Shown here: positions 6,336-47,284 of the stretch, piece by piece
Numbering within the stretch: the stretch's first letter is position 1
Layout of the letters: each line of letters starts with the position of its first letter
Assembly (NCBI GenBank): GCA_028875655.1
Contig: JAPPCX010000016.1
Span: 1-49,687, forward strand
Origin: Chloroflexota bacterium
Lineage (GTDB): Bacteria > Chloroflexota > Dehalococcoidia > Lucifugimonadales > UBA3495
DNA length: 49,687 nucleotides
Reading direction: 5' to 3'
The notes under the pieces: model-generated
Told to the model about the DNA's origin: nothing
Databases searched by the model: none
The model's input: the letters and a program-made list of their open reading frames with translations, nothing else
Translations under genes and position numbers: made by a program

Positions 6336-6385
6336 GGTACGGTTCCTCCTATCCTTCTGCTCTGTTGTTCCGGTCCTTCTCATCT

Positions 6386-6410
6386 GTCATTCCGGCGAAA
6401 GCCGGAATCC
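6386..6410. repeat. Dispersed 25-bp palindrome, copy 1 (CCGGC variant)
   Basis: GTCATTCCGGC, a GAAA loop, then GCCGGAATCC: a perfect hairpin lying 3 bp upstream of the ATG at 6383. It belongs to the same family as the copies at 25927, 28140, 28191, 38538, 40100 and 40536. In this copy both arms carry CCGGC where others have CCCGC, so the change is compensated and the hairpin is kept. Confidence 0.9.
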
Positions 6411-6437
6411 GGAACGTATTTCGCAATCAAAATCCCG

Positions 6438-25852: not shown

Positions 25853-25926
25853 TGTGATCTCCGCTTCGCGATCAGTAATTCCGCTTCCGTCATTCACACA
25901 CAACCCCGTCATTCCAGCACACTCTC

Positions 25927-25951
25927 GTCATTCCCGCGAAAGCGGGAATCC
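25927..25951. repeat. Dispersed 25-bp palindrome, copy 2, with half-unit
   Basis: GTCATTCCCGC, GAAA, GCGGGAATCC. A half-unit GTCATTCCAGC begins 19 bp upstream at 25908. It sits between the aminotransferase and SDR genes, at the 3' end of the SDR gene. Confidence 0.9.
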
Positions 25952-25957
25952 ACGCCC

Positions 25958-28093: not shown

Positions 28094-28139
28094 AGGTGTG
28101 CCTTTCCTCATTTGAGCCCGCGTTAGCGACATCTATACC

Positions 28140-28164
28140 GTCATTCCCGCGAAAGCGGGAATCC
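28140..28164. repeat. Dispersed 25-bp palindrome, copy 3
   Basis: GTCATTCCCGC, GAAA, GCGGGAATCC, in the 127-bp gap between trpF and trpB. It faces copy 4 in reverse orientation 26 bp away. Confidence 0.9.
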
Positions 28165-28190
28165 AGAACCGCTTTGCCGTATAGAACGTT

Positions 28191-28215
28191 GGATTCCGGC
28201 TTTCGCCGGAATGAC
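28191..28215. repeat. Dispersed 25-bp palindrome, copy 4, reverse orientation
   Basis: GGATTCCGGC, TTTC, GCCGGAATGAC: the reverse-oriented CCGGC variant, the same variant as copy 1. It ends 5 bp before the trpF stop. The CCCGC and CCGGC variants occur side by side here. Confidence 0.9.
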
Positions 28216-36441: not shown

Positions 36442-37692
36442 ATGTCAAACGGAGCGCTCACGGGTCTCAAAGTCCTTGACTTCACCCACTACGTCGCCGG
36501 GCCTTATTGCACCAAGCTGCTGGCCGACTACGGCGCGGATGTGATCAAGGTGGAGGCTCCCTCCGGTGATGGAGCGCGGCAAATTGGCCCGTTCCCCGAT
36601 GATGTGCCGCACCTGGAGAAAAGCGGCCTTTTCCTGCACTTGAACACCAACAAGCGCAGCATCGTCATCAACCTGAAGGGGGATGGCGCGGCCGATCTGG
36701 TCTGTGGCCTGGCATCCTGGGCGGACGTAGCCGTCGAAAGTTTCAGACCCGGCGTTGCCGACCGGCTGGGAATCGGATACGGGCAGTTATCGGCCACCAA
36801 TCCCCGGCTGATCTGCACCAGCATTTCCAATTTCGGGCAGACCGGCCCCTATCGTGACTACCGGGGTTCCGAGATAATCTTCTACGGGATGGGCGGCGAG
36901 ATGCACTCCACCGGACTCGCCGACCGGGAACCGCTGAAGTTGGGCGGCAACGTCGGACTCTACCAGGCTGGCGCGGTCGCCGCCGTAGCCACCATGGGCG
37001 CCATCCTCGTCGATTCTTTAGTCCCGGATGGCGGCGAAGCCCCGGGTCAGCACATCGACGTATCGATCCTTGAGACTCAGCTCGGCTCCGTTGACCGCCG
37101 CCAGAGCGCGCTGCTGGCCTACCAGTACACCGGCGAACTGAGCCACCGGCCGGCATCCGGCGGTTCCGGCGGCTATCCCAACGCCGTGTACCCAACCGCC
37201 GACGGTTACTTGCAGATCAACGGCAGCCGGATGTACTGGCCCCGCGCCGTCTCCATGCTGGGCAACCCGCCCGAACTGAACACGGAACGCTGGCGAGACC
37301 CGGCATCCCAGGGCAACCCGGACATGCAGGAGGAGTTTGAATCGGAGCATTTCTTGCCCTGGCTGCTGGAGCGCACCAACGCCGAGGCGTGGCAGGCTGC
37401 CCAGGCCCACCACGTGCTTTCCGGCCCGATTAACACCATGGCCGACATTAACGCCGACCCTTCTTTCAACTCACGTGGCGCTTTCGCCGAGGGTGATCAT
37501 CCCGCCGCCGGCCCGCTCCGCTATCCCGGCCGGCCTTTTATTATGAATCAATCGCCCTGGCAACTCCGCCGCACGGCCCCGTTGCTGGGCCAGCACACCG
37601 CCGAAATCCTTGCCGAACTCGGCTATGACGACGCGGCCATCGCCGGGCTGGTCGATGCCGGCGTTGTGGGACTCAACCACACGGACGGATGA
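36442..37692 (+). CDS. CaiB/BaiF family CoA-transferase 1
   Basis: Class III CoA-transferase of 416 residues. LTGLKVLDFTHYVAGPYCTKLLADYGADVIKVEAPSGDGAR is the typical N-terminus, followed by SIVINLKGDGAADLV, CTSISNFGQTGPYRDYRGSEII, the C-terminal HTAEILAELGYDDAAIAGLVDAGVVG. Such enzymes swap CoA between acids such as formate, carnitine, or succinate and degrade unusual carboxylic acids; the acceptor is unknown. It begins a plus-strand run of three CoA-transferases with oxidoreductases between them. The next gene starts 12 bp downstream. Confidence 0.93.
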   Translation: MSNGALTGLKVLDFTHYVAGPYCTKLLADYGADVIKVEAPSGDGARQIGPFPDDVPHLEKSGLFLHLNTNKRSIVINLKGDGAADLVCGLASWADVAVESFRPGVADRLGIGYGQLSATNPRLICTSISNFGQTGPYRDYRGSEIIFYGMGGEMHSTGLADREPLKLGGNVGLYQAGAVAAVATMGAILVDSLVPDGGEAPGQHIDVSILETQLGSVDRRQSALLAYQYTGELSHRPASGGSGGYPNAVYPTADGYLQINGSRMYWPRAVSMLGNPPELNTERWRDPASQGNPDMQEEFESEHFLPWLLERTNAEAWQAAQAHHVLSGPINTMADINADPSFNSRGAFAEGDHPAAGPLRYPGRPFIMNQSPWQLRRTAPLLGQHTAEILAELGYDDAAIAGLVDAGVVGLNHTDG

Positions 37693-37704
37693 CGGATAGC
37701 AGCT

Positions 37705-39060
37705 ATGGCACGACTACCCCTTGAGGGCCTGCGCGTCCTGGAGATTACCGTTGTTTGGGCCGGGCCCTACTGCGGTTCCTTCCTTGCGGACCTGGGCGCG
37801 GAGGTCATTCGCGTTGAGTCCACCAAGACCTTCGTACCGCTGACTCGCGGCGCTGCTCCGCACCCTACGCAGGATGTGATTGACAACTTGCCTCTGTACT
37901 CCGGCGGCGTTCCCAACCGCATTCCCGGCGCGCGTCCGTTCAACCGCTCGCCCATGTTCAACTCCCACGCCCGCAACAAGCGCAGCATGACCGTGAACCT
38001 GCTGGACCCCGGCGGACGGGAGATTTTTGACCGCCTGGTCGCCATCAGCGATGTCCTGGTGGAAAACAACCCCACCGAAACTATGGAAAAGCTGGGCATA
38101 TCCTACGAATCCCTGAAGGCCGTCAAGGACGACATCATCATGCTGCGGATGCCGGCCTACGGCAGCACCGGGCCTTACCGTAACTTCCGCGCCCATGGCG
38201 TCCATATTGAAGGCGTGGTAGGCCACACCATGCTGCGCGGCTATGAGGATACCGACCCGTCTTACAACACCACTGTCCTGATGTCGGACGCGGCGGCCGG
38301 CGCCCAGGGCGCTTTCGCGGTTCTGGCCGCGCTCCATCATCGGAAACGAACCGGCGAAGGCCAGCTGGTGGAGTTGGGTCAAGCCGAAAACGTTTTTCCG
38401 TTCCTTGGGGAATACTATCTCGACTATCTGATGAACGGACGGACCCATGGACCGACCGGTAACCGCCACCCGTCGGCCCTGCAAAACTGCTACCCGTGCG
38501 CCCCAACTCCCAACCCGTCAGTCCCGCCGCCTGACCCGTCATTCCCGCGAAAGCGGGAATCCAGCGACAATGACCGATGGGTCGTCATCACCGTTTATGA
38601 CAACCACCAATGGCAAACCCTCTGCGACGTAATCGGCGCGCCGGATCTGGCTGCCGACCAGGAACTGGCCGACCCGGCCGGCCGCCATGCCCGACAGGAC
38701 GAAATCGATCACCGCATCGCCGCCTGGACGCGCACGCAAACCCCCGATGCCGCCATGCGCGCGCTGCAACAACGCGGCATCCCCGCCGGCGCGGTGATGA
38801 ACCAGGCCGACTCCTTCGCCGACCCGCATGTCCAAAGCCGCCGGTTCTTCCAGGAAGCCTACCAGGAAGACTGCGGGACGCATCTCTACCCCGGCCCGCT
38901 ATACAAAATGTCCGCAACCCCGCTGGGTATAAGGCGCGGCCCCGTTATGTTCGGCCAGGACAACGAGTACGTTTATCGTGAACTGCTGGGCTACAGCGCC
39001 GAGGAATACGCCGCATTGGAGGCAGCCGGCCATATCGGGACAGATTACGTGGTAGGATAA
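37705..39060 (+). CDS. CaiB/BaiF family CoA-transferase 2 with a repeat-derived insertion
   Basis: Class III CoA-transferase of 451 residues, about 35 longer than its two neighbours of the same family. N-terminus: LEGLRVLEITVVWAGPYCGSFLADLGAEVIRVESTK. Between the conserved NCYPCA and DRWVVITVYDN lies a low-complexity segment encoded by a dispersed palindrome with a half-unit (residues ~265-288, SVPPPDPSFPRKRESS). The downstream domain is in frame and looks intact, so the gene should still be translated. Gene start AGCAGCTATGG has no strong Shine-Dalgarno. Confidence 0.9.
   Translation: MARLPLEGLRVLEITVVWAGPYCGSFLADLGAEVIRVESTKTFVPLTRGAAPHPTQDVIDNLPLYSGGVPNRIPGARPFNRSPMFNSHARNKRSMTVNLLDPGGREIFDRLVAISDVLVENNPTETMEKLGISYESLKAVKDDIIMLRMPAYGSTGPYRNFRAHGVHIEGVVGHTMLRGYEDTDPSYNTTVLMSDAAAGAQGAFAVLAALHHRKRTGEGQLVELGQAENVFPFLGEYYLDYLMNGRTHGPTGNRHPSALQNCYPCAPTPNPSVPPPDPSFPRKRESSDNDRWVVITVYDNHQWQTLCDVIGAPDLAADQELADPAGRHARQDEIDHRIAAWTRTQTPDAAMRALQQRGIPAGAVMNQADSFADPHVQSRRFFQEAYQEDCGTHLYPGPLYKMSATPLGIRRGPVMFGQDNEYVYRELLGYSAEEYAALEAAGHIGTDYVVG
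38517..38562. repeat. Palindrome copy 5 plus 21-bp half-unit, inside a coding sequence
   Basis: Half-unit GTCAGTCCCGC (38517-38537 as a 21-bp unit) followed directly by the full palindrome GTCATTCCCGC, GAAA, GCGGGAATCC (38538-38562), in frame in CoA-transferase 2. The half-unit spacing of 21 bp matches the spacing at 40058, 40079 and 40100, and 21 is a multiple of three. Confidence 0.88.
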
Positions 39061-39080
39061 CCGCAACCCACTGTGAGGTT

Positions 39081-40037
39081 ATGGCTATGTCCACCAAACG
39101 CATCGGCATCCACGCCGGCGCTCCCAACGCGGAAGCATCGCTGGATCTAATGCGCCGCGCGGAGGCGGCCGGCGCTCAGGCTGCGTGGCTAACCACGGGA
39201 GGCACCGGCCTGGATGCCCTGACGCTCTTCTCCGCCGCCGCCGTGCAGACCGACAACATTCTCTTCGGCACGTCCATCGTTCCCACGTATCCGCGTCATC
39301 CCATCGTCGTAGCACAGCAGGCCCAGGTGATCGACCAGTTGGCTCCGGGACGGCTCCGCATCGGCGTCGGCCCCAGCCATCGCCCTCCCATGCGAGCCAT
39401 GTTCGGATTCAACCTGCGCGCGCCGCTGACCAACCTGCGCGAGTACCTGCAAATCCTGCGGGCGCTCTTGCAAGAAGGCTCCGTCGATTTCGACGGCCAG
39501 GAATACACCGCCCACGCCAGCATCTCACGCCCGGTGAACGTTCCCGTAATGGCATCCGCTCTACAGGAAGGCTCTTACGAGCTATGCGGCGAACTTGCCG
39601 ACGGGGCGATCAGCTGGGTCAGCCCGGCGGTGTACCTGCGGGACAAGGCGCTGCCGGCAATGCGGCGCGGCTCCGACCAGGCGGGGCGCGAAACGCCGCC
39701 CTTGATTGCCCACGCCCCCGTTTGCATCAGCACGGATTCCGACGCCACGCGGCTGGCGGTTCAACAGCAATTGTCCAATTACCCCCGCCTGCCCTTCTAC
39801 CAGCAGATGTGGGCCGCCGCCGGCTACCCCGAAGCCGCTGAGGAAACCTGGAGCGACGGCATGATCGAGGCTACAGTGTTTACGGGCGACGCCGATACCG
39901 TCGGCGAGAAGATGGTCGCCATGCTCGACATGGGCATCGACGAACTGCTGGTGACGCCGGTAACCGCCGGGGACGATCCGGCCGCCGATATGGAGCAAAC
40001 CATCCGGTTGCTGGGCAAAGTCGCCCAATCTCTCTAA
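39081..40037 (+). CDS. LLM-class flavin-dependent oxidoreductase
   Basis: Luciferase-like monooxygenase of 318 residues, TIM-barrel, FMN- or F420-dependent. Typical segments are GAQAAWLTTGGTGLDALTLFSAAAVQT, IVPTYPRHPIVVAQQAQVIDQLAPGRLRIGVGPSHRP, NLREYLQILRALLQEGSVDFDGQEY and a C-terminal GDADTVGEKMVAMLDMGIDELLVTP. Substrate unknown; SAR202-like bacteria carry many such enzymes thought to oxidise recalcitrant organic matter. The start is preceded by GTGAGG. It lies 20 bp behind CoA-transferase 2. Confidence 0.92.
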   Translation: MAMSTKRIGIHAGAPNAEASLDLMRRAEAAGAQAAWLTTGGTGLDALTLFSAAAVQTDNILFGTSIVPTYPRHPIVVAQQAQVIDQLAPGRLRIGVGPSHRPPMRAMFGFNLRAPLTNLREYLQILRALLQEGSVDFDGQEYTAHASISRPVNVPVMASALQEGSYELCGELADGAISWVSPAVYLRDKALPAMRRGSDQAGRETPPLIAHAPVCISTDSDATRLAVQQQLSNYPRLPFYQQMWAAAGYPEAAEETWSDGMIEATVFTGDADTVGEKMVAMLDMGIDELLVTPVTAGDDPAADMEQTIRLLGKVAQSL

Positions 40038-40057
40038 TGGGCACACCCCCACCTACC

Positions 40058-40124
40058 ATCATTCCCGCCACCTAACCCGTCATTCCGGCCATTTAACCCG
40101 TCATTCCCGCGAAAGCGGGAATCC
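40058..40124. repeat. Palindrome copy 6 with two half-units at 21-bp period
   Basis: Half-units begin at 40058 (ATCATTCCCGCCACC), 40079 (GTCATTCCGGCCATT) and the full palindrome at 40100-40124. Each half-unit ends in TAACCC, so the array has a 21-bp period. It fills most of the gap between the LLM and IsdG-like genes. Confidence 0.85.
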
Positions 40125-40158
40125 AGAATCCTCACGTTACCAGGATGGAGAATTGATT

Positions 40159-40488
40159 ATGTTCATCGCCACCAACCGCATCAAGGTCAAGACCGGCTAC
40201 GGCGACACCCTGGAGCAGATGTTCAAGGCCCGTGGCGCGGTTCAGGAGCACCCCGGATTCATCAGCTTCGAGCTGTGGAAGATGAACAAGACTCCCGACC
40301 ATGAAGAGTTCCTGGTGGTGACCCATTGGGAAGCCGAGGAGCATCACAACACCTGGACTCGTAGTGACGCCTTCCGCTCGGCTCATGCCGGCGGCCCGCC
40401 CGACTTCCTGCTCGGCCCCGGCGATTTCCACACCTACGAGGTTGTGCATCGGCTGGATGCAGCCAGCGCAGCGGCGGCAGCCGACTGA
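40159..40488 (+). CDS. IsdG-type antibiotic biosynthesis monooxygenase, possible heme-degrading
   Basis: Small ABM-fold protein of 109 residues. Asn6, Trp66 and His76 fall at the same residue numbers as the catalytic triad of staphylococcal IsdI/IsdG heme monooxygenases (N6, W66, H76 in IsdI). That makes heme degradation possible, although many ABM proteins lack this activity. The ATG at 40159 has GGAG 8 nt upstream; an alternative upstream TTG is unlikely. Alanine-rich C-terminus. It stands between two CoA-transferases without visible heme transport genes. Confidence 0.85.
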   Translation: MFIATNRIKVKTGYGDTLEQMFKARGAVQEHPGFISFELWKMNKTPDHEEFLVVTHWEAEEHHNTWTRSDAFRSAHAGGPPDFLLGPGDFHTYEVVHRLDAASAAAAAD

Positions 40489-40516
40489 CCCACACTTCCC
40501 TTTGCAATCATATTCC

Positions 40517-40560
40517 GTCATTCCCGCCACATTCCGTCATTCCCGCGAAAGCGGGAATCC
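40517..40560. repeat. Palindrome copy 7 with one half-unit at 19-bp period
   Basis: Half-unit GTCATTCCCGCCAC starts at 40517, and the full palindrome GTCATTCCCGC, GAAA, GCGGGAATCC is 40536-40560, 14 bp before CoA-transferase 3. It occupies the spacer that would carry this gene's ribosome site. Confidence 0.88.
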
Positions 40561-40574
40561 AGAAGGGTTAGGCA

Positions 40575-41822
40575 ATGGGGCCGTCCGAACCTACGTTATT
40601 GGCTGAACAGTTCGGCCCCCTACAGGGGGTTCGCATACTGTCCACCGGCACCATAGTGGCGGAGCCGTTTGCTGCCGTGATGGCGGCTGAAATGGGCGCC
40701 GAGGTAATCCATATCGAGCGCCCCGGCAAGGGCGAAGACTGGCGGGTGGCCGAGTTCCCCATAGAAGCTCCCAACGGGGATCTGGTAGCCAGTTCCTGGC
40801 TCCAGGATCACCGGAACATGTACCACACCACCCTGGACTTCAGCACAACCGAGGGGCGGGATATCTTCCTCAAGTTGGTGGAGCGGGCTGACATTTGGAT
40901 GGAGAGTTCCAAAGCCCGCACCTACGACAAGTGGGGATTGGATGACGCCACGGTTCTGGCGGCCAACCCCAGCATAGTGATCTGCCATATTTCCGGATAC
41001 GGGCAGGATGGCGACCCGGAATACGTGGGTCGGGCATCTTACGACTTCACGGCCCAGGCGTTCGGCGGCATGATGAACCTCATGGGCAATCCCGAACCCG
41101 ACCCGCCGACCCGGGCAGTGCCCTGGACCGCGGACTACATCACCGGCCTGTTCTGTATGTGGTCGTCCCTGGCGGCGTACATTCACGCGCAACGCACCGG
41201 AGAAGGCCAGGTCATCGACCTGGCCCAGTTCGAGGCGGTTCATCGCATCTTGTCGGGCACCATGGTTGCCTACAACGAGCTGGGACTGGTGCGTGAGCGG
41301 GCCGGCAACAAGGCCGGCAACGCTCAGCCTTGGGACACCTTTAAGGCCAGCGACGGTTGGGTCGTTATCGCCGCCGTCGGACCGGTGGTGTACGCCAGGG
41401 TCTGCCGCGTACTGGACCTGGACCCGAACGATGACAAATGGATAAAAGCCCGCCGTGAGGTAAACTCGCCCGAGGGCATCGAGTTCGACGCCATACTGCG
41501 CGGCTGGGTGGAAGACCGAACGGTGGACGAGGTGGTCAGGATATTCAACGAAGCCCAGGTCGGTTGCAGTCGGATCATGAACGCGCGGGAGATGGCTGAG
41601 AACCCCCATTACCGCGCCCGGAAAGTACACCTGGAGTGGGAAGACCAACAGCTGGGAAAAACGGTCAAGGGAGTGGGCATAGTGCCCAAGCTCTCCAGAA
41701 CGCCGGGCAAGATCTGGCGCGGCTCGGTACCCGTCGGCCACGACAACAACCTGGTCTATGGCAACCTGCTCGGAATCAGCCCCGACACGCTCCGCGAACT
41801 GGGCCAGCGGGGCGTGATCTGA
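40575..41822 (+). CDS. CaiB/BaiF family CoA-transferase 3
   Basis: Class III CoA-transferase of 415 residues. LQGVRILSTGTIVAEPFAAVMAAEMGAEVIHIERPGKGEDWR at the N-terminus, then STTEGRDIFLKLVERADIWMESSKA, CHISGYGQDGDPEYVGRASYDFTAQAFGG, and the RMNAREMAENPHYRARK-like C-terminal segment. Its acceptor is unknown, and it differs enough from its neighbours to suggest separate substrates. The palindrome copy 7 lies directly upstream. The next gene (Uma2) follows after 26 bp. Confidence 0.92.
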   Translation: MGPSEPTLLAEQFGPLQGVRILSTGTIVAEPFAAVMAAEMGAEVIHIERPGKGEDWRVAEFPIEAPNGDLVASSWLQDHRNMYHTTLDFSTTEGRDIFLKLVERADIWMESSKARTYDKWGLDDATVLAANPSIVICHISGYGQDGDPEYVGRASYDFTAQAFGGMMNLMGNPEPDPPTRAVPWTADYITGLFCMWSSLAAYIHAQRTGEGQVIDLAQFEAVHRILSGTMVAYNELGLVRERAGNKAGNAQPWDTFKASDGWVVIAAVGPVVYARVCRVLDLDPNDDKWIKARREVNSPEGIEFDAILRGWVEDRTVDEVVRIFNEAQVGCSRIMNAREMAENPHYRARKVHLEWEDQQLGKTVKGVGIVPKLSRTPGKIWRGSVPVGHDNNLVYGNLLGISPDTLRELGQRGVI

Positions 41823-46858: not shown

Positions 46859-47284
46859 AGCGATAGCCTCACCAAGCCCCGGCGAACTGGCCGAGGCGAC
46901 AAATTGGATTGCATTCTACCCGCACCGGCAAATGGGGGCTACCTCGCCCCCTCACGTTGTTGAGCTGCCCCTCCTCAGTGACACTTCCCCCTTGCCCCAA
47001 CCCGCCACCCATCCCTACCATTTAACTCAACAATTCAACCGCCCAACCCAACCATCCAGTCGCCCAACCCCCGCTCATGGTGAGCCTGTCGAACAACCAC
47101 CTCCAAATCCTCCCAAATGCCCGCCAAATCCTTCATTCTCGCCCTCAATACCCTCCCAATCCGCACCCATCACCCGCCCCAACGCCCCACTCAAATGAAC
47201 AGAAATGAGCGGAAATAAGTGGGAAATCCCATAATCCTGTCCATCCTGTATATCGATGTAAAAACTCCCTCCCGAGGTAATCCC
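46859..47284. other. 426-bp intergenic region with C-rich repeats
   Basis: No convincing gene. The plus strand is C-rich and G-poor from about 46930 to 47200. At 47073-47094 is GCTCATGGTGAGCC followed by TGTCGAAC, a type of short intergenic repeat seen in many genomes. From 47232 a short internal repeat, ATCCTGTCCATCCTGTATAT, occurs. These precede the small gene at 47285. The large open frame across 45777-47198 on the plus strand is an artefact of the rRNA leader and the crotonase antisense. Confidence 0.6.
47073..47094. repeat. Intergenic repeat with GTCGAAC end
   Basis: GCTCATGGTGAGCC then TGTCGAAC. Sequences of this kind (reverse complement GTTCGACAGGCTCACC) are familiar as short dispersed intergenic elements in many bacterial genomes. 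Only one copy is visible in this window. Confidence 0.55.

Follow-up and report, generated by a model that had tools for sequence, protein, structure and literature searches.

In the window, a 49,687-nt stretch of DNA from a Chloroflexota bacterium, the second gene of a tandem pair (37705-39060, + strand) encodes a family III CoA-transferase of 451 amino acids. Pfam CoA_transf_3 (PF02515) matches the gene at 308 bits in two stretches, one on each side of an in-frame insert, and the closest solved relatives of the product are a benzylsuccinate CoA-transferase subunit and formyl-CoA transferase. The insert contains a complete 27-nt REP of the CGTC-1 type (38537-38563, +), recognized by exact match, RNA fold and a consensus of 131 copies. 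It consists of the CGTC tag (38537-38540), stem arms ATTCCCGC and GCGGGAAT (38541-38548 and 38553-38560), a GAAA loop and a CCA tail (38561-38563), and its RNA is predicted to form a hairpin of 8 bp with a 4-nt loop (z = -3.65). A degenerate half-unit, CGTCAGTCCCGC (38516-38527), starts 21 nt 5' of the full REP and is followed by a 9-nt spacer, the two together occupying 38516-38536 (+). The 451-aa frame crosses the REP with zero stops; the REP and its half-unit are read in frame as SVPPPDPSFPRKRESS, the full REP contributing (P)SFPRKRES. An Rfam search of 37700-40700 returned zero matches.

At residue 167 of the product, the presumed catalytic aspartate position appears to be a histidine in a phmmer alignment to formyl-CoA transferase. 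Together with its upstream paralogue (36442-37692), the gene may encode a two-subunit enzyme like benzylsuccinate CoA-transferase, in which the downstream product would be the non-catalytic subunit.

The repeat and its distribution

The 27-mer, CCGTCATTCCCGCGAAAGCGGGAATCC, is present in the window as four exact copies, one copy with one mismatch and one with three, all on the + strand; the expected count from 100 dinucleotide shuffles is 0. Apart from the copy in the CoA-transferase gene, the exact copies are intergenic: one at 40099-40125 with two 5' half-units (array 40060-40125), one at 40535-40561 with one 5' half-unit at a spacing of 19 nt, which is no multiple of three, and one at 28139-28165 that forms a CGTC-outside dimer with an inverted variant copy (28193-28215, - strand). 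The single-mismatch copy (25926-25952), also intergenic, has two 5' half-units at 19-nt spacing (array 25885-25952), and the copy with three mismatches (6385-6411) is a variant, GTCATTCCGGCGAAAGCCGGAAT, with a compensated stem. Across the genome under study (G000, 3.45 Mb), about 220 copies were found within three mismatches and 0 with the reversed pattern. Among 50 genomes of the bacterial family, some have 0 copies, such as that of the congener G018 (one contig), and the highest count is 776 within three mismatches, in G021, a 3.4-Mb genome in two contigs without a PF01797 match.

We surveyed 132 copies in 549 kb, comprising 80 stretches around listed copies, the window included, with about 90 of the ~220 copies lying outside; to be picked, a stretch needed an exact or near-exact match to the core, which biases copy identity towards high values. 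The consensus of 131 aligned copies is CGTC, ATTCCCGC, GAAA, GCGGGAAT and CCA, 27 nt in total (4+8+4+8+3), usually with G next. Within the tag, C at position -1 is conserved in 92% and GTC in 100% of aligned copies, values that reflect a finder that itself demands most of this core; the tail bases C, C and A are conserved in 98, 96 and 95%, and the GAAA loop is present in 114 of the 132 copies. The same number (114/132) lie outside predicted genes. Most copies are single, and among eight close pairs six are tag-outside (head-head) and none are tail-tail.

Half-units are strongly polar. At least one (CGTCATTCCCGC plus 7-9 nt) stands 5' of the full REP in 69 of 132 copies, with a 3' equivalent in 2 of 132. 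Neighbouring spacers within an array agree at 4.35 of 7 bases, versus 2.77 of 7 between arrays, and the outer flank is closer to the first spacer of its own array than to those of other arrays, a likeness consistent with an insertion junction that was duplicated repeatedly. A slippage or one-ended copying step may lie behind the arrays, for which we found no description among CGTC REPs in the literature.

A second dispersed repeat, with core GAGCCTGTCGAA, has 18 copies in the 549 kb (L135 near 1027 and 1078 (-), L156 near 4909 (-) and window position 47081, among others). In LarC, and possibly in RecG, this repeat too is translated in frame, giving HGEPVEP/PEPVEG.

The insert in homologues and in the predicted fold

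The segment is absent from all 26 distinct homologues compared (same bacterial family, ~53-86% identity), including those of 11 species of the same genus and of the sister species, G008; the relatives' records are named as Dehalococcoidia, Chloroflexi and SAR202 metagenome genomes. The usual loop in these homologues is NCYPC-A-GENRW, with 4 additional residues in three congeners (G007, G009 and G015). Relative to the G000 gene, that of G008 is 63 nt shorter and those of G007 and G009 are 51 nt shorter, and the extra codons map to 38503-38569 (+) in a protein alignment of 27 sequences and a nucleotide alignment, with edges that depend on the alignment. G008, whose loop is short, is placed as sister to G000 by a concatenated tree of RecG, UbiE and acyl-CoA dehydrogenase, and since the REP is absent from G008 and all other congeners, gain in the G000 lineage is the simplest reading. 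Downstream segments of up to 3 kb in the relatives lack the REP too. The insertion in the CoA-transferase gene is real and recent, and the first-pass annotation, which had described a half-unit and a full copy of a dispersed palindrome inserted into this coding region with the frame continuing, is confirmed by the exact 27-mer, the open frame and the alignment. A recombination junction at the repeat (identity to G008 of 96% in the N half and 81% in the C half) was considered and rejected because residues 289-370 evolve fast in all comparisons.

A predicted model of the CoA-transferase, of moderate quality (pLDDT 70, pTM 0.67), matches the fold of known family III CoA-transferases. In it the insert is flanked by strands 259-265 and 291-297, and pLDDT falls below 50 at residues 271-287. 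By this prediction, the REP insert sits in a beta-hairpin turn, a surface loop. In G017 (L041 / L078) the same turn is filled by an 18-bp tandem repeat, present about eleven times and encoding SSxHSA, and in G045 by KGDEG repeats, unrelated expansions which argue that it accepts additions of any origin.

Other coding copies and the reading frame

Predicted coding regions make up 81% of the sequence, yet only 6 of the 132 surveyed copies clearly lie mid-gene in conserved proteins, with support from codon usage on both sides. These are read as SFPRKRES in the CoA-transferase, RHSRESGNP in an acyl-CoA dehydrogenase, RHSRESGNP plus heptads in an MFS transporter, RHSRFRGNP in LarC, VIPAKAGIQ in RecG and SFPRRQES in UbiE. 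Most congeners lack the mid-gene inserts, and the alignment gap is exactly 27 nt in UbiE and 36 nt in the acyl-CoA dehydrogenase. Further in-frame copies, for which the first-pass annotation had proposed a search in this genome and its relatives, number at least five in G000, in addition to REP variants in congeners.

Insertions recur at the same loops. The interdomain linker of the nickel-insertion protein LarC was readable in 13 congeners and in five family genomes from outside the genus; it contains REP-derived peptides in nine of the former (six of the CGTC-1 type and three of another hairpin, GTCATTGCGAGCGAAGC...) and in none of the latter (loci: the 2102 region of L135 (G000:C69), L176-L187, L224 and L225); in G014 the linker shows a very long expansion. 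The acyl-CoA dehydrogenase of G015, a distant congener in the tree, has a different REP variant in the same loop (SHSGESRNP). A similar peptide occupies the MFS loop of G012, and RecG of that genome contains an apparent decayed REP copy.

All six mid-gene copies are oriented forward with respect to the gene, and all three frames are used among them. The three forward frames of the REP are open and one of the reverse frames has a stop; after correcting for this stop alone, the 6/6 forward bias (p ~0.05) is suggestive only. At 27 nt, the full unit is divisible by three, and with nine codons and no stop in any forward frame, a forward insertion would be translatable as an inert, probably disordered peptide.

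Half-unit spacings range from 18 to 24 nt genome-wide, and those outside the mid-gene copies include 31, 30 and 38 at 19, 20 and 21 nt, respectively. Spacings divisible by three account for 7 of 7 in mid-gene copies versus 46 of 114 elsewhere (Fisher p = 0.002), as counted by an automatic search for chains with up to two mismatches; the seven mid-gene spacings come from three genes and are not fully independent. Because only the coding spacings are all multiples of three, the frame is kept through selection and not by a built-in 21-nt step, contrary to an earlier suggestion that the 21-bp half-unit spacing itself helps to preserve it.

Origin of the insert and relation to known systems

We favour the explanation that a CGTC-1-type REP inserted into the beta-hairpin turn of the CoA-transferase, that coding copies are the survivors of purifying selection and that the peptide is most likely functionless (probability about 0.88). 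A 27-nt hairpin DNA element entered the gene, most simply after the split from G008, at a turn that joins two strands and tolerates extra residues. The half-unit would have come from local duplication of the junction (flank plus 5' arm), a step of 21 nt that kept the frame, and the insert would presumably be expressed as part of the protein. Purifying selection would remove most insertions into genes, leaving a few coding survivors in tolerant loops.

We consider it unlikely that the peptide instead has a function, as a new segment for binding or regulation that positive selection maintains. In favour is the recurrence of inserts at the same sites, in the LarC linker and in the acyl-CoA dehydrogenases of two distant species, but tolerance of linkers and turns accounts for it equally well; moreover, the use of three frames yields different peptides, the six affected proteins are unrelated, the loops take unrelated expansions too and the RecG copy of G012 looks decayed. 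Still less probable is that the segment formed on the spot, through slippage or templated copying and without a moving element. Such a process would suit a turn that is already length-variable, and the spacer likeness within 5' half-unit arrays does show local duplication, but slippage fails for 27 nt that are identical to dozens of intergenic copies and absent from the sister gene, and it fits the half-unit only. We give an equally small chance to an assembly or binning artefact that put the repeat into the gene: the genome is metagenome-assembled in 123 contigs and repeats are classical misassembly points, but the element is shorter than ordinary reads, the gene continues in frame on both sides and matches one homologue there, and independent like cases are found in further genes and in the assemblies of other species.

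PF01797 (Y1/RAYT transposase), the sole family searched, had no match in G000 or 13 congeners, with control genomes matching, and was absent also from the high-copy relatives G021 (two contigs) and G049 (one contig). This absence counts against a resident RAYT as the mover of the REP, although such an enzyme may since have disappeared. At the insertion, no target-site duplication could be resolved, so transposition is a presumed mechanism. Tentatively, and with more doubt than conviction, we suggest that CGTC REPs in this clade might spread without a host Y1/RAYT-type enzyme, by a 5'-polar process in which half-unit arrays would build up as the junction is duplicated time after time (7-9 nt of flank together with the 12-nt tag and 5' arm). 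In coding regions, such a process would add 9-residue peptides and heptad repeats, building disordered linkers stepwise, as perhaps in LarC of G014.

CGTC-1 REPs have been described as having an unpaired CGTC (or TGTC/CCTC) tag, an 8-bp stem starting AT, a 4-nt loop and a CCA tail; they are mostly intergenic, with dimers mainly head-head (tag outside), no dedicated flanking transposase and intragenic copies in several species, and were equated with Neisseria dRS3 and R. conorii RPE-6 (Di Nocera 2013, PMC3733652). The repeat studied here, with its tag, stem and loop, CCA tail, mostly intergenic placement, tag-outside dimers and lack of a flanking transposase (PF01797 only), is a CGTC-1-type REP and shares its superfamily with Neisseria dRS3 and Rickettsia RPE-6. 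The likeness to Rickettsia palindromic elements raised in the first-pass annotation therefore holds, through RPE-6, and its view that the family was undescribed does not, as CGTC-1 REPs and their intragenic copies are published (PMC3733652).

In-frame REP insertion, listed for Rickettsia, Opitutus and various Proteobacteria, now extends to Chloroflexota. In the literature, we found no earlier report of CGTC REP insertion in a Chloroflexota lineage, no paper on the translated peptides (RHSRESGN, FPRKRES, IPAKAGI and others) and nothing relevant on palindromic repeats in SAR202; the RepRanger paper, which lists Chloroflexota genomes, leaves intragenic copies unmentioned and refers to CGTC only where Di Nocera is cited. 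The phenomenon itself is known; as far as this literature goes, the lineage, same-loop recurrence, measurable frame filter and 5'-polar arrays go beyond the published picture. Close relatives provide clean sites for comparison, certain loops have been hit repeatedly and the frame filter lends itself to measurement, and the system's recent insertions in genomes without a detectable Y1 transposase bear on how CGTC REPs move.

Compared with the CGTC-1 family, the repeat shares the features listed above, intragenic in-frame copies included, and differs in its Chloroflexota host (Dehalococcoidia/SAR202-type), in the 5' half-unit arrays that accompany half of the copies and in the absence of a Y1 transposase from the genus genomes searched. 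With the Rickettsia palindromic elements (RPE-1 and others) it has in common a palindrome translated in frame at tolerated positions in unrelated genes; the unit here is 27 nt, of the CGTC-1 type and comparable to RPE-6, whereas RPE-1 is set apart by its description as a longer palindromic insertion (PMC3733652). GTAG REPs mobilized by RAYT are likewise tagged, high-copy hairpin repeats with intragenic copies, but the tag here is CGTC, and PF01797 was not found in G000 or the 13 congeners.
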